Part shown: one piece after another, positions 1-35,607 of the stretch | How the letters are laid out: every line of letters begins with the position of its first letter | How positions within the stretch are numbered: the first letter of the stretch is position 1 | Assembly (NCBI GenBank): GCA_007376405.1 | Contig: VMGD01000012.1 | Location: forward strand, 1-35,740 | Reading direction: 5' to 3' | DNA from: Microgenomates group bacterium Gr01-1014_7 | GTDB lineage: Bacteria > Patescibacteriota > Microgenomatia > Daviesbacterales > UBA10151 | Length of the DNA stretch: 35,740 nt | The notes under the pieces: generated by a model | What the model was told of the DNA's origin: nothing | The model's input: the letters and a program-made list of their open reading frames with translations, nothing else | Databases searched by the model: none | Position numbers and translations under genes: made by a program

Positions 1-2484
1 CACTCCCACATTACCTCCGGCAAATATTCCAAATACAGATGAACCACTGGTTATGGATGGAGTAGTACCGGTAAAAGACAGGGCTGCATTATTGGCAGAA
101 AGTGTTTCTACTCCTGAAATACTGGTGGTACCGATAACTGTTAAGTTAGAAGAAGCTGTAGTTGTCCCAATTCCCACATTACCCTGTACCCCCAGTCCAT
201 TGGAAATAGTGGCCGCTCCTCCTGTAAAGGCAGCACCTATATTTAACCCTGAATTTATATATGTATTATGGGCAACAATGCCGTTGGCAACAAAGTTATG
301 AGTTCCTTCTATGGCTAAATCCCAGACCTGTTCTTCTCCGGTATATTCTATAGATACAATGGGGTCCCATTGATAAGAATAATTTTCTGTGCCACTACTG
401 CTGTTGACATTCAACTTACCTGCTGCTATACTGGGGTTAATTCTTGCATTTGTATTAAAAAGAAAGGCAAAATCATTATGATTCTCACTCCTACTGAACA
501 AACTATCGCTATTTATGCTATTTACTATACGCTGTTTATAATTGCTGTCATTTTGGCCGTTCGCTTCTGGGAAACCAAAGTCACCCGCAGCCGATAAATC
601 TTCAGCTACTGCTATTTTATCACCAACCTTTAAATCAGAGACTTTAACCCAACCGGCATTTTGAATTGGAGACACTTCAACTATTCTACTCGGGCCACCA
701 TCCGGGGTGTTTACCAGATATGGATGATTGCCTGTAGTTCTAATTTGTTTCCCTGATCCGGTAGTAAGTTTAAACACCGGCTTTACCCCCATATTAAGTA
801 AAGCATTAACCTGGGCAGGGACAAATTTCTGAGTTTGCTGATCCAGAGTATAGATTTTCTGACCTTCTTTGATCTGGTCAACTCTGACTTTTTCCCCATT
901 CTCTGTGATTAAAATTGAATCCCCTGTCACACACTGGCCCACAACATGCAGGGCCTGTAAGGGGGAAGTAGTACCAACTCCCACATTACCTGATACTGCC
1001 AAACCTGATGATGGAGTAGTTACTCCTGAATATCCAATTAACCCTGATCCTAATGTACCGGTAGAATCTATAGTTAATGTGCCTGTAATCCTGCTATTTC
1101 CCCAGACATCCAATATATTACTGGAGGTGGTGGCCCCAATACCCACATTCCCATCCACAAACAGTCCATTAGCAGGAGCAGCTATTCCCTGCCTGATTCC
1201 TCCTATATGTGCTCCTCCTGCTACTGAAAGTAATGAGTTTGCTGTAGTTATACCTATACCTACATTACCTGCAACAGCCAAACCTAAATTAGGTACAGAT
1301 ACTCCACTGCTGGATGTATATCCCACACCTGCATTACCTGATACATAAAGAGTAGCGCTGGGAGCTATAATACCCACTCCTACATTACCATTTGTATCTA
1401 TGGTTATACCTGATGTGGCACTACCTCCTGTTATTAAACCTATGGTATTACTTGATAATCTATATAATCCTGTATCTAAATCATTAGTAAAGGTTAAAGA
1501 TGGAGCAGAGGCTGATCCATCAGCCAAACTAACTATCCCTGATGTAGTAATACTGGTTATGGACGGAGAATCCTTAAGAGAGAGTGTAACAGATGAGCCT
1601 AAATTAGCATCCCCTCCGCCTGATAAATTAGTTCCTGCTGTTACTGTTATCTTAGAATTAGATAAAGCTGAATTGGGAATACTTTTTAAGGTATTATCCG
1701 ATCCTGATATGGTTTTACTTACTAAGGTCTGAGTAGTATTAGTTCCAACTAGGGTTGTTGTAGCTCCGGGAAGAGTAAATGTATTAGATCCGGAAGTTAT
1801 CTGGGAAGCAGTTCCGCTTAAAGTTATACCGGCAAATGCAGGAGAAGAACTACTGGATACATCCTGATCCAGTTTGGCAGATTTTGTTATATTCAAAATA
1901 GTTCCTCCTGCACCCAGTGTAATAGTTCCTGCTGAAGGAGTAGCTTCCAGGGTTAAGCCATTAATGGTATCTCTGACCGAGAGCGCGCCGTTAATTTGAG
2001 TATCTGAATTTATCTCTAAAAAAGCAGGAGCTGAAGCTACGGCCAGTACATTGGAGGAGGGTATGGAGTATAGAGTATAGGGTATAGAGGGTTTAATAAA
2101 AGATAAACCTGCAATAGTTGCAGATGCAATTACCACTGTGCTCAGGATAGATAATGCAGGAGTTAAGAATTTAAATGCTTTTTTAGGCAGTTCAGTGGGT
2201 TCTTCTATTTCCTTACCCTTTATACTTAATACTGCATACTCTATACTATTTTCTTCTGCCTTTTTTAATAGTTCTTCTGTGGACAGGGGGTTGTACTCAA
2301 ATTGTTCAACAGAGGAAGGATTCAGTTTTCTTAAGGAGTCTAAAGGATATAATCTTGTTCCACCCGGGGTCCTGATGGTTTTTAGTTTGCCTGCTTTTTC
2401 CCATCTGCGCAGAGTATCTATGGAAACACCGAGAAGTTTGGAGGCCTGGCCTATTTTAAGTAAAATTACAGACGGGTTAGACAT
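1..2484 (-). CDS. Partial (runs off window start) MerR-like HTH - TM - fibre/tail-fibre-like repeat protein containing an intein
   Basis: Manual reverse-strand translation is open from ATG at 2484 to base 1: MSNPSVILLKIGQASKLLGVSIDTLRRWEKAGKLKTIRTPGGTRLYPLDSLRKL (MerR-type HTH), then FKFLTPALSILSTVVIASATIAGLSFI (TM), then repeated SGNVGVGTTSP / GNVGIGTTTASSNLTV units. Not in the supplied ORF track because it lacks an in-window stop. Confidence 0.9.
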   Translation of the reverse strand, partial: MSNPSVILLKIGQASKLLGVSIDTLRRWEKAGKLKTIRTPGGTRLYPLDSLRKLNPSSVEQFEYNPLSTEELLKKAEENSIEYAVLSIKGKEIEEPTELPKKAFKFLTPALSILSTVVIASATIAGLSFIKPSIPYTLYSIPSSNVLAVASAPAFLEINSDTQINGALSVRDTINGLTLEATPSAGTITLGAGGTILNITKSAKLDQDVSSSSSPAFAGITLSGTASQITSGSNTFTLPGATTTLVGTNTTQTLVSKTISGSDNTLKSIPNSALSNSKITVTAGTNLSGGGDANLGSSVTLSLKDSPSITSITTSGIVSLADGSASAPSLTFTNDLDTGLYRLSSNTIGLITGGSATSGITIDTNGNVGVGIIAPSATLYVSGNAGVGYTSSSGVSVPNLGLAVAGNVGIGITTANSLLSVAGGAHIGGIRQGIAAPANGLFVDGNVGIGATTSSNILDVWGNSRITGTLTIDSTGTLGSGLIGYSGVTTPSSGLAVSGNVGVGTTSPLQALHVVGQCVTGDSILITENGEKVRVDQIKEGQKIYTLDQQTQKFVPAQVNALLNMGVKPVFKLTTGSGKQIRTTGNHPYLVNTPDGGPSRIVEVSPIQNAGWVKVSDLKVGDKIAVAEDLSAAGDFGFPEANGQNDSNYKQRIVNSINSDSLFSRSENHNDFAFLFNTNARINPSIAAGKLNVNSSSGTENYSYQWDPIVSIEYTGEEQVWDLAIEGTHNFVANGIVAHNTYINSGLNIGAAFTGGAATISNGLGVQGNVGIGTTTASSNLTVIGTTSISGVETLSANNAALSFTGTTPSITSGSSVFGIFAGGNVGV
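265..933 (-). other. Mini-intein / Hint domain (223 aa) inside the fibre protein
   Basis: HVVGQ|CVTGDSILITENGEKVRVDQIKEGQKIYTLD...IRTTGNHPYLVNT...VWDLAIEGTHNFVANGIVAHN|TYINSG. Block A Cys1, block B TxxH, block F and block G His-Asn followed by Thr are all present. Confidence 0.9.
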
Positions 2485-2600: not shown

Positions 2601-2858
2601 TCAGGAAGTAGAATATGTATAAATACTGACCTTATTTTCAGTAGTCAAAATTATAGCTAATGGAAATTTGAAACTCAGGGGTTTTTGTTTTGGAGGTCTT
2701 ACCACAATTGGTTGATTCTCAATGATGGTTATAAAATTGGCATGAAGGGGCAGGATATCAAAATTTCCCTGCAGATTTTTAGAGGAAACAGAAGAAGCCT
2801 GAGTATCCAGGATAACTTGTTGAGGAGAGATTATTCGGACATGTAGTGTTTGATTCAT
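2601..2858 (-). CDS. atpC: F1 ATPase epsilon subunit, short, apparently lacking the C-terminal helical domain
   Basis: MNQTLHVRIISPQQVILDTQASSVSSKNLQGNFDILPLHANFITII matches the epsilon N-terminal beta-sandwich; last gene of the operon. Start placed at the internal Met (2858) rather than 2876. Confidence 0.8.
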   Translation of the reverse strand: MNQTLHVRIISPQQVILDTQASSVSSKNLQGNFDILPLHANFITIIENQPIVVRPPKQKPLSFKFPLAIILTTENKVSIYTYSTS

Positions 2859-2862
2859 AATT

Positions 2863-3005
2863 TTGATGCTGGACAATAGATACTAGATGCTAGAATTTGA
2901 TGTTAGATAAATGAGCAAAGCTCCTGCTTTGCAGTAGAAGATAGATAATTTCAATCTTCTAACTTCCAGTTTCAAAATCCAGCTTCCAGCATCCAGCGTC
3001 TATCC
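2863..3005. repeat. Two 7-bp-period degenerate arrays flanking a hairpin in the atpD-atpC gap
   Basis: TTGATGC TGGACAA TAGATAC TAGATGC TAGAATT ... and CTTCTAA CTTCCAG TTTCAAA ATCCAGC TTCCAGC ATCCAGC; between them GCAAAG-CTCCTG-CTTTGC. Confidence 0.75.
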
Positions 3006-5265
<2,260 letters not shown>

Positions 5266-5275
<10 letters not shown>

Positions 5276-6717
5276 AGTTTGGCCAAAAAAGGCCCTGCTC
5301 CTTCCAGAATTTTAATCAGCTCTTCGTCGCTTTGAAACTTAGCTGTTGATTTAGCAATAGGCATCAGCCGGGGATCCCTCAGAAAGGCCTGAATTATTGT
5401 GGCCTTATATTTTTCCACAAAGGCCTGGTTTTTAGTTTGCAAAAATGTGGTAAAGACTAGAGCTAAAAGTATCAGCTGGATCGGTTTTGGGACTTGAGTC
5501 AAAGGATCCTGTTTAAGAAGTTCCATAATCAGATCTCTTCTTCGCAAAGTTAACTGTGTTTCCGGAGGAAGTTCCGAAGAAAATCTGGAGATTGTTTCTA
5601 AATCCGCCGCGGCGGACAAAACCTGTCTTATCTTGGCAGAAAGTAAATTACTGACCGGATCTTGCGTTTGTCTTCCCACCCGCGAAACTGACAGCGAAAT
5701 ATCAATAGCCGGAGTTTGGCCCTGGGAGCGCAAACTTGCTTTAAAAAGTAGATGTCCGTCAGTCATTGACATGACATTGGTGGGGATGAGAGTGGTAAAA
5801 TCATTTAAATTGAGTTCGATGACCGGTAAAGCCGTTATCGAACCTCCTCCATATTGAGGCAAAAAATTTCCTGCCCGCTCCAAAAGATGGGCATGCTGGT
5901 AAAAAATATCCCCCGGATATGATTCACGCCCCGGTGATTTATTGCCCAAAAGAGCAATCTCCCGGTAAATCTTGGCATGAGTACCAAGATCATCAAGAAT
6001 TAACAGCACATCTTTGCCCTTTTTTTGAAAATATTCGGCAATAGTAAAAGCGGTTTTTGGAGTCAGAAAGATCAGGGGAGCAGGTTCGGAAGAGGAAGTA
6101 GCAACAATGACCGTAAATATAAGCGCTTTATTATTTTTTAATGTATCAATTAAGTTTCTAACAACTACAGCCGGTTTGCCGATTGAGGCGTAAATACAGA
6201 TTATTCCGGTATTTTTCTGGTTAATAATGGTATCAATTAAAAATCCGGTTTTGCCTGAGTGAGCGTCTCCCAAAATCAGTTCCCTTTGTCCCTTACCCAG
6301 AGGTATCAAGCTGTCAATTAAAGTTATTCCGGTTAAAAATTGCTCGGTAATAAACTCCCGGCTTTCAATGCCCAAAGCTGCTTGTTCAAGTCCAAGCTCC
6401 GGATTTGTCTTGGTTTTGGAAAGAAGGCCTTTGCCGTCAATTGGCACACCCAAAGGGTTAATGGCCCGGCCGAGTAAAAAATCTCCAACAGATACTCCCA
6501 AACGGGAGCTCAAGCGAATAAATTGCTGTTTGGGAACTATTTTACCTTCATCCAGCATTAAAACTTCAATTTTATCCTCTTCGAGGGAGTTAACCCAACC
6601 CCTTATTCCTTCATCAGACTGCACCATGTCATTTATCTTGATGGTAGGGAAACCATCAAGATAAACCAGAAAATCCCGACTGGAGGTTACATAACCCACT
6701 TCTTGTGTTTGGTCCAT
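5266..6717 (-). CDS. atpA: F1 ATPase alpha subunit
   Basis: Walker A GDAHSGKTG; DISLSVSRVGRQTQDP (Arg-finger region); LGVPIDGKG; operon position. Confidence 0.95.
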
Positions 6718-6718
6718 A

Positions 6719-7192
6719 TTACCTTAAGAACTTCTTGAAGTTTTCTAAGACCTCTCCTTTCTTTTCATCAAGCCTTGATTTTAATGAATAATCTTTCTTC
6801 CTTCCCTTCCAGACCAGGGAGCATCCTGCTATTAAACCCATATCAATTTTTGTATCCAGCAGAATATTTGGCTGGTATAATTTCCTGGCAAATGAGCCTA
6901 TTTTAAAAATAGTGGGTTCATCAGGCTCAAAGGTAAGATAAATAGTTAAAGTGGGTAATAATTTAATAGCTTTTTCAATTTCTTCAAAGATTTTATACAC
7001 ATTGTCTTTATTGAATTTACTTTTTGCATCCGGCGGCAAGCTGGAAAGCCAGCTCATTTCCCCTGCTGTCAACTGTGTTTGCGATCCTCCGAAAAATTCA
7101 TTTAAAAGAGTGGATTTTAAAACCCTGACCCTTGAATTGAGCTGGGCCAGGGTGAAAGTATCTTTTAAGATAATGGCCAGTAGGTTGTTCAT
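6719..7192 (-). CDS. atpH: F1 ATPase delta subunit (divergent)
   Basis: Position between b and alpha, about 157 aa, C-terminal IDMGLIAGCSLVWKGRKKDYSLKSRL resembles the delta C-terminus. Confidence 0.75.
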   Translation of the reverse strand: MNNLLAIILKDTFTLAQLNSRVRVLKSTLLNEFFGGSQTQLTAGEMSWLSSLPPDAKSKFNKDNVYKIFEEIEKAIKLLPTLTIYLTFEPDEPTIFKIGSFARKLYQPNILLDTKIDMGLIAGCSLVWKGRKKDYSLKSRLDEKKGEVLENFKKFLR

Positions 7193-7839
7193 ACAATGAA
7201 TTTTTCCACTTTGGCTTTTTCCAGAGCCTCATAAATTAAATCAAGCTGATCTTTAAGTGAAAGCTTTTTGGATAAAACTATGCTTAGGGTTTGTTCCATC
7301 ATGGCAATGATGTTTTCATCAATGAGTTTAAGCTGAGCATTTTTATAAGTTTCAATTAATGACCTGGTGCTTTTTAGCTCAAGCTCTATTGAGGCAGCTG
7401 TTTTTTGCTCTGTCTGTATTAAAAAATCGGATAGTTTTTGCTCCAGTCGCTCAAAAGTTTGGCTGATTCTTTTTTCTGTTGAAACCTTACTGGCTTGCTC
7501 AAAATCCAAACTCCGCTTTTGCAAATCCCGCATAAAGTTTATCAGCTGATCCTGGGCGGAGATTATGGAATCTCTGGAGCCGTCAATCAGATTTTGCAGC
7601 CGGTTTGAATATTCCGAGATCAGCTTTTTTGCGGCCCAGTTGCCACCCGAAACTATTTCGGATTCGGCCTCAAACGCCGCTGCAAGAAGCTCGGCGCTTT
7701 TTTGTTTGGTTTCCAGGTAGACTTCTTTTTGACTTTCAATGATTTTTTTTCTTAAAAAATACTCACGAAGATATAAAATACTAGCCAAAATAGCAACTGT
7801 GCCGGTTATTAAAATGACAGAGTTTTCGGGCAGTTGCAT
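7189..7839 (-). CDS. atpF: ATPase b-like stalk subunit (N-terminal TM plus long coiled coil)
   Basis: Single N-terminal TM (VILITGTVAILASILYL) followed by a charged helical region; between the c-like gene and delta. Confidence 0.75.
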   Translation of the reverse strand: MQLPENSVILITGTVAILASILYLREYFLRKKIIESQKEVYLETKQKSAELLAAAFEAESEIVSGGNWAAKKLISEYSNRLQNLIDGSRDSIISAQDQLINFMRDLQKRSLDFEQASKVSTEKRISQTFERLEQKLSDFLIQTEQKTAASIELELKSTRSLIETYKNAQLKLIDENIIAMMEQTLSIVLSKKLSLKDQLDLIYEALEKAKVEKFIV

Positions 7840-7852
7840 AATTATGATAATA

Positions 7853-8668
<816 letters not shown>

Positions 8669-19883: not shown

Positions 19884-19920
19884 GTCACTTAGGTTAATTA
19901 AGATTCTTAAGTCTCTTATG
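19881..19920. repeat. 9-bp-period array starting at the mreB stop codon
   Basis: TAAGTCACT TAGGTTAAT TAAGATTCT TAAGTCTCT. Confidence 0.85.
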
Positions 19921-20466
19921 AAAGAGGTTTTCAGTAAAACCACCCTCTTTGATAAATCTTTCTTCCAGGGCTTTAATTTGTTTATCAAGTAAAAAAGTTA
20001 CCTGGTGGCAAAGAGTTAAAAGAAAATTAGCATCATCTTCAGGATTATTGAAAAGCTTGGGGTATTCTATGAGCTGACCTAAGTCACTTAGGTTTCTTAA
20101 GTCACTTAATTTAAATGCAAGCTGGCGGAATTTAGTAACTCTAGGATCGGTTTTGGGGTAAATTTCAAACCCGTTTTGCCTCAAGAAGTCTTCATAATCC
20201 ATTAAAAGCTCTTCAAAAGAAGCCTTGGCTACACCCAGGAGTTTAATTTCGCCTTTTTTAGAAGTTTGAGATTGCCCAACCCCTTCAACTATATTTTGTT
20301 TTCCAGATCTAGCAGCTTGGTTCATCTGGTCAGCCTGGCGGTAGTCTGGTTTTAAGTTACCTAAGTTACTTAAGTCACTTAAGATATAGCGTTTGGTGAA
20401 AGCAATTGTTAAATCATGAATTATTTCTGCATAGCGATAGGTTAAAAGATATTTGACTTTGTTCAT
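19894..20466 (-). CDS. Four-helix-bundle protein (23S rRNA intervening-sequence type) with repeat-encoded insertions
   Basis: DQMNQAARSGKQNIVEGVGQSQTSKKGEIKLLGVAKASFEELLMDYEDFLR; insertions LSDLSNLGNLK and LSDLRNLSDLGQL come from 9-bp arrays. Confidence 0.85.
   Translation of the reverse strand: MNKVKYLLTYRYAEIIHDLTIAFTKRYILSDLSNLGNLKPDYRQADQMNQAARSGKQNIVEGVGQSQTSKKGEIKLLGVAKASFEELLMDYEDFLRQNGFEIYPKTDPRVTKFRQLAFKLSDLRNLSDLGQLIEYPKLFNNPEDDANFLLTLCHQVTFLLDKQIKALEERFIKEGGFTENLFHKRLKNLN
20073..20110. repeat. 9-bp-period array in frame
   Basis: TAAGTCACT TAGGTTTCT TAAGTCACT TAATTT. Confidence 0.85.
20351..20386. repeat. 9-bp-period array in frame
   Basis: TAAGTTACC TAAGTTACT TAAGTCACT TAAGATATA. 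Confidence 0.85.
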
Positions 20467-20483
20467 GATATTATCATAACATG
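20464..20483. promoter_or_regulatory. Divergent leaderless promoter pair
   Basis: CATGATATTATCATAACATG: plus TATTAT-6-ATG(20481); minus TATGAT-6-ATG(20466). Confidence 0.6.
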
Positions 20484-21518
20484 CTTATTGGTTTTGATGG
20501 ATCAAGAGCTTTTTCAAAGACAAGAACCGGCACTGAAAATTATTCATATCAGTTGTTAAAGGCTCTGTCTGGGATTGATAAAAAGAATAAGTATTTGGTT
20601 TATTTAAGACTTGGGAATGAGGTTAAAGTTTCGCAGTGGCCAAAGAATTTTCAATTTTCAATTCTCAATTTTAAATTTTTATGGACACAGGTAGGGCTTT
20701 CTCTACAAACATTTAAAGACAAAATGGATGTATTGTTTGTTCCGGCCCATACCTTGCCACTTATAAGAAAGCCTGGATTAAAGACGGTAGTCACTGTACA
20801 TGATCTCGGGTCAGAGTATCTACCACAAATGCACCAATTTAAGCAAAGGCTCTACTTAAGTTTCATGCAAAGATATCAGTTAAAGGGAGCCACTAAAATT
20901 ATAGCCGTATCAAATGCTACCAAAGAAGATTTGATTAAGAAGATTGGAATAAATCCCGGGAAAGTAGAAGTAGTATATGAAGGTCACGATAAAGATAAAT
21001 TTAAAAGTGATATATTAGTTGAGAGTTTGAAACAGTATTATCTATTTGTGGGAACCATACAGCCAAGAAAAAATATCGAAAGGATAATTGAAGCTGCATA
21101 TAGAATAAAACAGAAATTAGTTATAGCAGGATCAAAGGGGTGGGGTAGAAAGCTTAAGGTAGTAGGTAATGTAGAGTTTTTAGGTTATGTGCCGGATAAA
21201 AAATTAGCTAAACTGTACAAAGGGGCAATTGCTTTGCTTTTTCCCTCTCTTTTTGAAGGATTTGGACTGCCCATTTTGGAAGCACAAGCTTGTGGCTGTC
21301 CTGTAATTACTTCCAATATCTCCTCTATGCCTGAGGTTGCAGGAAAAGGGGCTATATATGTGAATCCGTATAATCTAGATGATATAGTTAGGGGAATGAT
21401 TAAAATAAATAACCAAGATACAAGAAACAAGTTAATTAAACTTGGATTTGAGAATATAAAAAGATTTAGTTGGGAGAAGTGCGCCAGGGAAACATTAAAA
21501 GTGCTGGAGGATTTATGA
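20481..21518 (+). CDS. Glycosyltransferase family 4
   Basis: TVHDLGSEYLPQMHQ; KIIAVSNATKEDLI; YLFVGTIQPRKNIERIIEA; PSLFEGFGLPILEAQACGCPVITSN. Confidence 0.95.
   Translation: MLIGFDGSRAFSKTRTGTENYSYQLLKALSGIDKKNKYLVYLRLGNEVKVSQWPKNFQFSILNFKFLWTQVGLSLQTFKDKMDVLFVPAHTLPLIRKPGLKTVVTVHDLGSEYLPQMHQFKQRLYLSFMQRYQLKGATKIIAVSNATKEDLIKKIGINPGKVEVVYEGHDKDKFKSDILVESLKQYYLFVGTIQPRKNIERIIEAAYRIKQKLVIAGSKGWGRKLKVVGNVEFLGYVPDKKLAKLYKGAIALLFPSLFEGFGLPILEAQACGCPVITSNISSMPEVAGKGAIYVNPYNLDDIVRGMIKINNQDTRNKLIKLGFENIKRFSWEKCARETLKVLEDL
20646..20680. repeat. 7-bp-period array in frame in the glycosyltransferase
   Basis: AATTTTC AATTTTC AATTCTC AATTTTA AATTTTT (FQFSILNFKFL). Confidence 0.75.
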
Positions 21519-25348: not shown

Positions 25349-26188
25349 CTACAGTTTGTCAATGCCAGGTATCCAAAGCCAGTAACCGCCTTGGGGATTA
25401 TCCGAAGGGTTGATAGCTCCGGATGGAGTTGCTGCTTTGGGAATAGGAGAAGTCCAAAGTCCGGAAGCGCCGGTTTTACCCAAATTTTTGGCCACAATGG
25501 AAAGATCAAAAGCATTGATCACTCCGTCTTTATTAAAATCCGCCGTTCCGTTCCAGTTTGAGGATTTGGAAGTTGAGCCGAAAGCCTTCTGTATAATAGA
25601 ATAATCGGCAGAGTTGATAATATTATCCTCATTTAAATCCCCGGTTATTAGATTAACTGCTTCTCCGTCATTTAAATTGGTCACAGCCGGGGCCATATAA
25701 AACTCAGATGGGGTGGCAATTTGAGCAGGGCCTTTAAGAAGAGCAGTATATTTTGTGCCACTGATGAGTCCTGCTAAAGATAAATTTGTGTAGGTTCCGC
25801 TAATCGGAAGATTAATACTGAAACTTAATATAAATTTAGGATTTGCTGAAAGAGTTCCTTCTATAATTCCTACAAATAGCTTGGTGGCTTGGTTGTCTAC
25901 AGGCCTTCCTTCCAGAGCTGCTTTTAAAGAAAGAGTGGGGCCGAATGAGGTGGCAATGGTGGAAGAAGAAGGCTCGGGTGTGGCTTCATCCGGGATGGAA
26001 AGAAGGCTTAGTTTGGCAGAAGAAGTTGCTACTTTAGGAGTGGGTTTGACAGTGGGCTTGGGTGCTATCTCTGAGGCTCTGCTTTTGACAGTTTGCTGCT
26101 GGGAAACAAGATAAGCTCCAACAGGAATGGATAGAATCAAAAAAACATATACTCCCAGCAGTAATCTTAGTTTTAAACTAGAGAACAT
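25349..26188 (-). CDS. Membrane-anchored surface protein with dockerin type I-like repeats
   Basis: N-terminal TM; GDLNEDNIINSADYSIIQKAFG and ADFNKDGVINAFDLSIVAKNLG. Confidence 0.85.
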   Translation of the reverse strand: MFSSLKLRLLLGVYVFLILSIPVGAYLVSQQQTVKSRASEIAPKPTVKPTPKVATSSAKLSLLSIPDEATPEPSSSTIATSFGPTLSLKAALEGRPVDNQATKLFVGIIEGTLSANPKFILSFSINLPISGTYTNLSLAGLISGTKYTALLKGPAQIATPSEFYMAPAVTNLNDGEAVNLITGDLNEDNIINSADYSIIQKAFGSTSKSSNWNGTADFNKDGVINAFDLSIVAKNLGKTGASGLWTSPIPKAATPSGAINPSDNPQGGYWLWIPGIDKL

Positions 26189-26216
26189 AGAATAATTGTA
26201 CTACAATATATAAATG
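26186..26216. promoter_or_regulatory. Back-to-back divergent leaderless promoters
   Basis: CAT-AGAATA-ATTGTA-C-TACAAT-ATATAA-ATG; the two -10 hexamers form the perfect palindrome ATTGTAcTACAAT. Confidence 0.65.
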
Positions 26217-32691: not shown

Positions 32692-33551
32692 AGGCCAATA
32701 GTAATAAATCCTATCCCTATAATTTGAGTAAGTAAAAAATAACCTGAAAATTTAAGTTTAAAAACCTCCGGGAATTTAGTCCCCAGAATTAAACTGAACA
32801 CGATTAAGAAAATATATTTTATTCCCTGAAGGGAGTTGACTATGGCAGGATTTGCCAAAGAAATTGAAAACAAAAGAAGTAATTCTGAAGCTATTGCAGA
32901 TACTTGTCCAAAAATAAAAAGGGGCACACTTTTGACTACAGCTTTTGTTTTCAAAAAAGAAGCAATAATCCTTCTTAAATATGGAACCACTAAGAAGCTG
33001 AGGAGTAAAGGCAAAAGAATGGGCCTTGACCAAATTAGAACTGTTAAAAAACTTGTCTTTAAAAAACTTAAAGACAAAAAATAATATGATAAAGCAAAAA
33101 AGACAGAAGAGAAAATCTCCAAAAAAAGCTCTTTCATATTAATTTTGCCTTTTAAATTCTCCAAAGTTAAAAATATCAGTCCTGCCACAAGTATTGCAAT
33201 GGCTTTAATCTGGGTTTGGGTTAAACCCTGAAAGCCAAGTATAAGTAAAAATATTGGAGTTAGCGCTCCTATGACAGGAATTACTCTTTGAACCTGGCCG
33301 GATTTTAAAGCTCTAAGCATCAGGTATGCGCCGATTATCCAAGAAGCTGTTGAAACTGAAGCCAGCATTATAACTTCTGTGGAGGGAAGTTTTACAAATG
33401 GAATACCTAAAAGTAAACTCATATTCATCAAACTAAAGTAAAAAATATAAATCAGGGGATCGGGAATGGTTTTGGTCAGTAAAATTTTATCAACCGTTAC
33501 AGCAATACTATTTAAAAACTGGGCCAAAATGGCAAAAGGGAGGTACGACAT
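32667..33551 (-). CDS. EamA/DMT-family transporter
   Basis: About 10 TM segments in two repeats; AYLMLRALKSGQVQRVIPVIGALTPIFLLILG. Confidence 0.8.
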   Translation of the reverse strand: MSYLPFAILAQFLNSIAVTVDKILLTKTIPDPLIYIFYFSLMNMSLLLGIPFVKLPSTEVIMLASVSTASWIIGAYLMLRALKSGQVQRVIPVIGALTPIFLLILGFQGLTQTQIKAIAILVAGLIFLTLENLKGKINMKELFLEIFSSVFFALSYYFLSLSFLKTSFLTVLIWSRPILLPLLLSFLVVPYLRRIIASFLKTKAVVKSVPLFIFGQVSAIASELLLLFSISLANPAIVNSLQGIKYIFLIVFSLILGTKFPEVFKLKFSGYFLLTQIIGIGFITIGLYLLASTG

Positions 33552-34858
33552 TATTTATTTTCTTTGATTATTTCTCTATAGCGCTTTTCCAAAACCTCTT
33601 CTGCATCAACAGTATGACCAATAAAGCGAAGCAGGGAATGGGGAATCCCGCTGTGTTGAATAATATCTGTATACACAAGGGCTGAAGGCCGGATTTTTCT
33701 TTCAAAAGTTAAATAATCTACCTCAACCAAGCCAAACCTGGGGTCAAAGCCCCGATGCCATTCAAAATTATCAATCAAAGACCAGTAGAAAAAGCCCTTA
33801 ACTTGAATGCCTGCTTTGATTGCTCTATAGACCTCGGAAAGATAAGTAATTAAGAATCTATTCTTGCGGTCATCATTGGTGGAGGCAATTCCACACTCTG
33901 TTATATAAATAGGCAGGTCATCGGATAAATCTGCCAGTACATCAAATAAACCTTCGGGATAAACCTCCCAGCCCAGATCGGAAATATCTCTTGACTGTAA
34001 GGTTTCATCGGCAATTTCAGGCCAAAACCCTTTTCCATCTTTAAACCGGGTATGGAAATAGTAATTTATTCCCAGGAAGTCATGGGTCTTTCTTGTCAGA
34101 AAGTAAAACAGATGATTGGCAGTTAAATCCGTGAAAACTACAGCTACCTGCTCAATTAAAGAGTGTTTATGATAAGGCTCAAAAGATTGGACATTTTGGG
34201 CAATGCCAACGGGTTTTTTGGGGAAAGCAGAGTGCAAATATTTATAGACCTTTTTGTGAGCAGATGCCAGATTCAGGGTAGTTTTTATTTGTCCCCAAAA
34301 ACTTTTTTTGGCCGGAGGCCAGACTCTTTCAAAGTAGGCTTCATAAACATATACCCCCGGTTCGTTTAAAGTGATCCAAAAGTCAACATATTCTGCAATC
34401 TCAGGAGCCACCCTTTTAACAAATCTTTCAAAATAGCTTGCTGTTTTGCTATTTTCCCAGCCACCAAGTCCTGCCACCCACTGAGGCAGGGTAAAATGCC
34501 AAAGAGTCAGCATGACTTTAATGTTAAGTGACTTAAGATACTTAAGCACACTGACGTAATGCTCAATTTCATGATGATCAAACTCTCCGTCTTTAGGTTC
34601 AATTCTTGACCATTCAATAGAGAGTCTATGGGCATTATGATTTAGCTCTTTGATAAGAGCAAAGTCTTTTTCATAAAGCTCATATTGGTTGCAAGTCTTC
34701 CCTGAGCGGAATTTAGGGGGGAGTTTTTGTTCCCATGCCCACCAATCGGCATTGACGTTATTGCCCTCCACCTGATAAGCAGAAGTGGCAGCTCCCCATA
34801 AGAAATCCTTTGGGAATTTTAGTATTCCATGTTCATGTTTTGGTTTGGGAGTGGGCAT
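33551..34858 (-). CDS. Glycoside hydrolase family 1 (beta-glucosidase-like)
   Basis: FPKDFLWGAATSAYQVEGN; FWITLNEPGVYVYEAY (acid/base); IYITECGIAS (nucleophile); GFFYWSLIDNFEWHRGFDPRFGLVEVD. Confidence 0.95.
   Translation of the reverse strand: MPTPKPKHEHGILKFPKDFLWGAATSAYQVEGNNVNADWWAWEQKLPPKFRSGKTCNQYELYEKDFALIKELNHNAHRLSIEWSRIEPKDGEFDHHEIEHYVSVLKYLKSLNIKVMLTLWHFTLPQWVAGLGGWENSKTASYFERFVKRVAPEIAEYVDFWITLNEPGVYVYEAYFERVWPPAKKSFWGQIKTTLNLASAHKKVYKYLHSAFPKKPVGIAQNVQSFEPYHKHSLIEQVAVVFTDLTANHLFYFLTRKTHDFLGINYYFHTRFKDGKGFWPEIADETLQSRDISDLGWEVYPEGLFDVLADLSDDLPIYITECGIASTNDDRKNRFLITYLSEVYRAIKAGIQVKGFFYWSLIDNFEWHRGFDPRFGLVEVDYLTFERKIRPSALVYTDIIQHSGIPHSLLRFIGHTVDAEEVLEKRYREIIKENK
34518..34546. repeat. 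9-bp-period array in frame in the GH1 gene
   Basis: TAAGTGACT TAAGATACT TAAGCAC. Confidence 0.6.
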
Positions 34859-34875
34859 GTTATAATCATAACATG
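34856..34875. promoter_or_regulatory. Palindromic divergent leaderless promoter
   Basis: CATGTTAT-AATC-ATAACATG: plus TATAAT-6-ATG(34873); minus TATGAT-6-ATG(34858). Confidence 0.65.
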
Positions 34876-35607
34876 TTTCGTTTTCTGCCCTTTATTTTAA
34901 TAGCTCTTTTGGTTCTAGGTGGATTGGGGTATTGGCGGTTTGTGGCTGTAAAGCAAAATCTGGAAAGTCCAAAGGCCGGGCAAGCCCAGGATCAGACCCC
35001 GATTGAGGTATCAAAGACGCTGCCTCAGGCAACTTTGGATGATAGAGTCAAGGCTTTGGAGGATTTAATTTCCAAAGTAGTGGTTGCGCTTAATTCGTTA
35101 AAATCATCCGCAAAGGGGGATACAGGCTCTTCAACGGACGCAAAACTAAACTCTCTGGATGCAGCTGTCACAGAATTAAAGGTAAGAGTTTCAGCTTTGG
35201 AAAAGTCTTCACCTGCAGCTCCCGCAACCACTACCTCAAGCTCGGGTAAATCCACAGTTTATATTCCTTTAGGGTCCGGCGGACAAATGAGTGATACCAA
35301 CTGGGCTACTCTTTCAACCTTTCAGATAAGTTTGGACCCCGCGCAATACCCGGGTTACACCAGTATGCAACTTGAAGTGACCATGAGACTTAATCAGCCG
35401 GGAGGCACGCTTTATGCCCGTTTGTATAATAGTAGCGGCGGTTCTGCCACTTCTTCCGAAGTTACCACCACCTCTACAACTTCCAAACTGGTAAACTCTT
35501 CAAATTTTACGCTGGCAACGGGTACTAAAACTTATGTTCTTCAGGCCAAAACTTCAGATGGCACCCCGGCCTTTTTGGATTATGCCAGGATAAAGGTTAA
35601 TTTCTAA
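34873..35607 (+). CDS. Membrane-anchored surface protein: TM + coiled coil + beta-rich C-terminal domain
   Basis: MFRFLPFILIALLVLGGLGYW; DDRVKALEDLISKVVVALNSLKS...LDAAVTELKVRVSALEK; Ser/Thr/Pro linker; jelly-roll-like end. Confidence 0.7.
   Translation: MFRFLPFILIALLVLGGLGYWRFVAVKQNLESPKAGQAQDQTPIEVSKTLPQATLDDRVKALEDLISKVVVALNSLKSSAKGDTGSSTDAKLNSLDAAVTELKVRVSALEKSSPAAPATTTSSSGKSTVYIPLGSGGQMSDTNWATLSTFQISLDPAQYPGYTSMQLEVTMRLNQPGGTLYARLYNSSGGSATSSEVTTTSTTSKLVNSSNFTLATGTKTYVLQAKTSDGTPAFLDYARIKVNF

Follow-up and report, generated by a model that had tools for sequence, protein, structure and literature searches.

Bidirectional promoters with symmetric -10 elements were reportedly described by Warman et al. 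in 2021. In the extended -10 promoters of sigma-70 (TGnTATAAT) a TG stands one base before the hexamer and the -35 element is dispensable. In the accessible portions of two articles (PMC10268837, PMC12825309), bidirectional promoters are defined by experimentally mapped divergent start sites 7-25 bp apart; the commonest start-site spacing in Escherichia coli is given there as 18 bp, with 10 and 23 bp also found, and positions -7 and -11 are reciprocally paired in the commonest 18-bp arrangement. At five such E. coli promoters the basal activity is described, in the available part of PMC12825309, as too low for polymerases to compete, exclusion being seen only upon activation of one direction. 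In leaderless bacterial genes a hexamer TANNNT begins about 12 bp before the start codon (Zheng et al. 2011, PMC3160421).

The window, i.e. the whole stretch of DNA analysed, comprises 35,740 nucleotides of contig VMGD01000012.1 from Microgenomates group bacterium Gr01-1014_7. At positions 34856-34875 the sequence CATGTTATAATCATAACATG extends from the ATG of a glycoside hydrolase family 1 (GH1) gene on the minus strand to that of a gene for a membrane-anchored protein on the plus strand. Both genes carry TANNNT at exactly -12, the distance typical of leaderless genes, and a TG at -15/-14, as in extended -10 promoters, is found on both strands. The two -10 hexamers have 2 bp in common, in agreement with the overlap that marks bidirectional promoters. 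Positions -7 and -11 do not coincide, unlike in the commonest 18-bp arrangement; other spacings are known in E. coli (accessible portions of PMC10268837 and PMC12825309), so that the implied start-site spacing of 15 bp does not bar the element from this group. With a probability of about 0.86, the 20 bp would constitute two head-to-head extended -10 promoters, devoid of -35 elements, which give rise to two leaderless mRNAs.

The element and its flanking genes

Table 1. Coordinates of the elements and of the genes that start inside them
Feature	Position	Strand	Evidence
Double leaderless promoter / double start-codon element CATGTTATAATCATAACATG, predicted	34856..34875	.	Sequence, palindromic 9/10 pairs
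-10 hexamer TATAAT, plus-strand gene, -12 to -7 of ATG	34861..34866	+	Sequence; hexamer peak of the genome at exactly -12
-10 hexamer TATGAT, GH1 gene, -12 to -7 of ATG	34865..34870	-	Sequence; GH1 relatives
Extended -10 TG (-15/-14), plus-strand promoter, opposite A(+1) and C(-1) of GH1	34858..34859	+	Sequence
Extended -10 TG (-15/-14), GH1 promoter, opposite C(-1) and A(+1) of plus-strand gene	34872..34873	-	Sequence
GH1 gene, 435 aa, start inside element	33551..34858	-	Pfam PF00232, E 5.9e-77
244-aa protein gene (surface protein of the original prediction), start inside element	34873..35607	+	ORF
Second element CATGATATTATCATAACATG, same geometry (A to A 15 bp; -10s TATTAT, TATGAT)	20464..20483	.	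Sequence
190-aa protein gene, start inside second element	19894..20466	-	Weak match to 23S rRNA-intervening-sequence protein, PF05635, below cut-off
Family-4 type glycosyltransferase gene, 345 aa, start inside second element	20481..21518	+	PF00534, E 3.7e-30

The start codons, CAT at 34856-34858 for the minus strand and ATG at 34873-34875 for the plus strand, are separated by 14 bp and lie 15 bp apart from A to A. The original prediction had described a 20-bp palindrome acting as a divergent promoter with overlapping -10 elements and holding both start codons. Its sequence and coordinates proved exact, the presence of both ATGs, 14 bp apart, was confirmed from the open reading frames and the sequence, and the claim that both start codons lie within an element of overlapping, divergent -10 hexamers is supported well beyond a single site by the recurrence reported below. 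The palindrome is near-symmetric but imperfect, and as such it was rejected as a signal of its own, symmetry of this degree being at chance level: the window contains three such 20-mers, and 1.9 would be expected. What lies above chance is the combination of the palindrome, two start codons and two -10 elements in register. On the shared-promoter reading, the near palindrome arises because each end, CATG, combines the start codon of one gene with the extended -10 of the other promoter.

A -35-like hexamer was not found for 34856-34875 at spacers of 15-19 bp, and a single-site promoter scan did not return the element because that scan demands a -35. The -35 region would fall inside the coding sequence of the neighbour, which may explain the use of an extended -10. 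Each promoter, of the form TGnTAnnnT and placed 12 bp ahead of the ATG it serves, would be recognised by the main sigma factor. RNA polymerase would bind in either orientation and initiate at the A of the corresponding ATG, yielding a leaderless mRNA. The spacing is economical: with 15 bp between the two A's, the bases C(-1)A(+1) at either start are paired with T(-15)G(-14) of the opposing promoter. With both -10 elements at leaderless distance, neither mRNA should have any nucleotides ahead of its ATG, a consequence that the original prediction had left unstated. From the sequence we infer the start at the A, the usage by polymerase and the leaderless translation. The shared-promoter reading draws on the geometry, the recurrence, the match to the leaderless profile of these genomes and the lack of operator-type covariation.

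Of 43 genomes examined in the family, 40 have a relative of the GH1 gene, and TANNNT at -12 is kept in 13 of 20 such relatives whatever the spacing to the neighbour, an approximate count with starts picked by alignment. The 244-aa protein has a hydrophobic helix at its N-terminus and a coiled-coil-like stretch, matched no Pfam family, and has relatives that adjoin GH1 in the family.

A genome-wide search for the element, proposed together with the original prediction, yielded further copies at 20464-20483 and elsewhere in the genome. The copy at 20464-20483, which the original prediction had missed, has the ATGs of a further divergent gene pair at its two ends, and a third is located at a dihydroorotase gene (locus L004). 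The generic pattern CATNNTANNATNNTANNATG matched four sites in the genome against none for the reversed control, with double gene starts at three of the four.

Further features of the window were noted. A third close divergent pair at 26188-26214 consists of a dockerin-containing protein (minus) and a lysylphosphatidylglycerol-synthase-type membrane protein (plus), with start codons 26 bp apart from A to A and TACAAT at -12 of both. The c-subunit position of the ATP synthase gene cluster (2601-8650) is occupied by a 265-aa protein (7853-8650, minus strand) in which a signal peptide and a large N-terminal domain precede a C-terminal hairpin of two helices with an ALGRNPLA loop; the second of these helices contains neither Glu nor Asp, and no Pfam family scored above cut-off. 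A gene at 1-2484 (minus strand), which runs off the window, encodes a protein whose N-terminal helix-turn-helix is of MerR type and which also contains repeats and an intein insertion (PF14890, residues 525-740).

Recurrence and the leaderless-promoter profile

TATAAT-like hexamers peak at exactly -12 of called ATGs. They occupy this position in 22 of 195 genes of the genome (typically 1-6 at positions further upstream), in 108 of 1132 genes of other genomes of the class (about 15 further upstream) and in 44 of 332 genes of an unselected 0.4-Mb sample of Saccharibacteria. Among genes with TANNNT at -12, TG at -15/-14 is present in 50% (genome), 36% (other class genomes) and 69% (Saccharibacteria sample), as opposed to 6-7% of the remaining genes in the first two of these samples and 4-7% over all three. 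C at -1 is found in 37-39% of the TANNNT-at--12 genes of the genome and other class genomes against 14-15% of their other genes, and in 35-39% of leaderless-like starts against 14-19% of all starts over the samples as a whole. Shine-Dalgarno-like words around called ATGs gave no peak comparable to that of the -12 hexamer.

In the 45 genomes of the family the generic pattern was found at 15 sites (control, 1), and CATG stands at both ends of all seven double-start sites; the pairs ROK kinase/6-phosphogluconate dehydrogenase (6PGD) and 269-aa protein/membrane protein occur in two genomes each. In the 281 genomes of the class a tight spacing-15 pattern matched 42 sites in 33 genomes, against two for the reversed control, and long open reading frames extend from both ATGs at 27 of the 36 sites inspected; the pattern itself imposes no reading frames. 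A prokaryote-wide scan was made with the perfect palindrome over 84,980 species, and its site totals are lower bounds. Among the matches listed, the element holds the starts of both reading frames at 41 of the 44 Saccharibacteria sites, at 12 of the 18 from other Patescibacteria, at all 10 from Gastranaerophilales, UBA947 and Saganbacteria, and at 10 of the 45 from the remaining prokaryotes. In all, at least 104 double-start sites (about 101 after removal of three duplicate loci) fall into at least 61 gene-pair clusters by BLASTP linkage, a few of which are possibly over-split; among the matches listed, most belong to Patescibacteria, Saccharibacteria foremost. The pairs, annotated from N-terminal sequences with profile tests for part of them, include tdk/ung, glyS/membrane protein, tsaE/murC, smpB/glycosyltransferase and gltX/membrane protein. 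Some Saccharibacteria genomes of 0.7 Mb hold five pattern matches each (reading frames checked for part). Many of the starts are pinned by protein N-termini, such as GltX MIRTRFAPSPTG, 6PGD MKIGFIGLGRMG and Tdk MAKLYFRYGAMGCGKT.

Most sites come from patterns that fix the -10 elements and the ATGs, so that invariance at these positions is by construction. No -35 signal was detected at the 104 double-start sites. No spacing-15 case was present in 1.49 Mb from the class and 0.4 Mb from Saccharibacteria sampled without selection, and the arrangement is rare. A dispersed repeat was considered and rejected, as genes and free positions differ at every site. Pattern matches outside genes that belong to a CATGTTAAC-type repeat were set aside. 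A CATGTTAACATG-type sequence underlies most of the non-gene matches in the class; it was observed at the gene-less loci L069, L072, L073 and L081, with an overlap in L069.

Spacing and alternative readings

The 6PGD/ROK-kinase (glk) pair, sampled in the family independently of the pattern, shows A-to-A distances of 15, 15, 17, 17, 17, 18, 40, 44, 44, 45 and 49 bp. This variable spacing, together with the TANNNT kept in GH1 relatives, argues that the leaderless promoter predates the shared element: it appears to be the older and more stable part, and the fusion into a shared 20-bp element a lineage-specific step. At three glk/6PGD loci (L265, L276, L285) one end reads CATATG, with the ATG 2 nt past the expected start site (A to A 17 bp); leaders of 2 nt are possible at these loci.

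A broader reading, held tentatively and at somewhat less than even odds, is that these elements form a promoter class that was selected and arose repeatedly in Patescibacteria and in some deep-branching relatives of Cyanobacteria. In it the start codon and the preceding C would serve as the opposing extended -10, and the single polymerase site would couple two leaderless genes held at a fixed distance of 15 bp. This reading is set against compaction, by which leaderless genes in small genomes happen to lie next to each other at a variety of distances, 15 bp being merely one. Further close spacings of 17, 18, 23 and 26 bp were indeed seen, and a tight spacing-18 pattern, with two fewer fixed bases, found 10 sites in the class (control, 2) with double starts at 2-3 of 10, its demand for C(-1) penalising that spacing. 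The 42 sites at spacing 15, obtained despite two more specified bases, nevertheless exceed these 10. C at -1 occurs in 38 of 40 starts of double-start sites found with a looser pattern that left -1 free, compared with 35-39% of leaderless-like starts, and near-universality is what would be expected if C(-1) is kept as the complement of the neighbour's G(-14). Compaction is rather unlikely, and a preference for spacing 15 over other close spacings is likely, although the unselected samples hold few divergent leaderless pairs. A one-sided variable-gap pattern gave spacing 15 in 12 of 39 matches, a figure confounded by the extended -10 itself and therefore given no weight in the case for a preferred spacing.

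The original prediction had further claimed that expression is mutually exclusive. Binding of polymerase at the overlapping -10 elements would be so by geometric necessity, and this part of the claim stands, but it tells little about expression, for which the E. coli data oppose exclusion at basal activity. That the overlap was selected as a switch, the firing of one direction suppressing the other gene, is considered improbable: simultaneous occupancy is impossible, and in E. coli one direction is repressed when the other is strongly activated, yet competition is negligible in the basal state at the five promoters described (available part of PMC12825309 for both), the gene pairs share no obvious logic, and the glk/6PGD pair of the family also occurs with 40-49 bp spacing.

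Conventional promoters with leaders inside the opposing coding regions, the -10-like hexamers being noise of an AT-rich genome in which isolated matches are common, are very improbable in view of the genome-wide register at exactly -12, the TG enrichment and the recurrence at about 60 gene pairs. Least probable of all is a palindromic operator, at which a dimeric regulator would bind the 20 bp and control both genes, as near-perfect dyad symmetry and two copies within one window might suggest: such an operator would covary, but the free positions of 31 double-start sites of the class lack reciprocal complementarity at three position pairs (complementary in 8 against 7.9, 8 against 7.7 and 16 against 15.8 expected), start codons and -10 elements account for every fixed position, and the gene pairs are unrelated and spread across phyla.

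Comparison with known systems

The shared-promoter reading joins bidirectional promoters and leaderless genes in a divergent control region of possibly minimal size, with 14 bp between the start codons, no leaders and no -35. From the sequence rule, start sites and start codons can be predicted without experiments where few members of a lineage are in culture. The reading also favours leaderless expression as a substantial mode in Patescibacteria, and it makes testable whether two genes sharing one polymerase site influence each other. No report joining bacterial leaderless starts with bidirectional promoters was found in the literature covered, most subscription papers lying outside its scope. 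Symmetric -10 bidirectional promoters and TANNNT leaderless genes are known; apparently new, as no report was found, is the sharing of bases between a start codon and an extended -10.

As far as the accessible portions of PMC10268837 and PMC12825309 extend, the element resembles the bidirectional promoters of E. coli in its short pseudo-symmetric sequence, its overlapping divergent -10 elements and the room for one polymerase at a time, but differs in the implied 15-bp spacing and in the start codons at both start sites; leaderless starts are not mentioned in those portions. Reciprocity in E. coli concerns -7 and -11, whereas at 34856-34875 it links C(-1)A(+1) with the TG of the extended -10. 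The element shares hexamer and distance with the leaderless genes of Zheng et al. 2011 (PMC3160421), which are single genes of Actinobacteria, Deinococcus-Thermus and others, in a text where the term "divergent" does not occur, whereas here two starts are fused back to back. As in the extended -10 promoters of sigma-70, the TG precedes the hexamer, but at 34856-34875 it doubles as the complement of the neighbour's start context.
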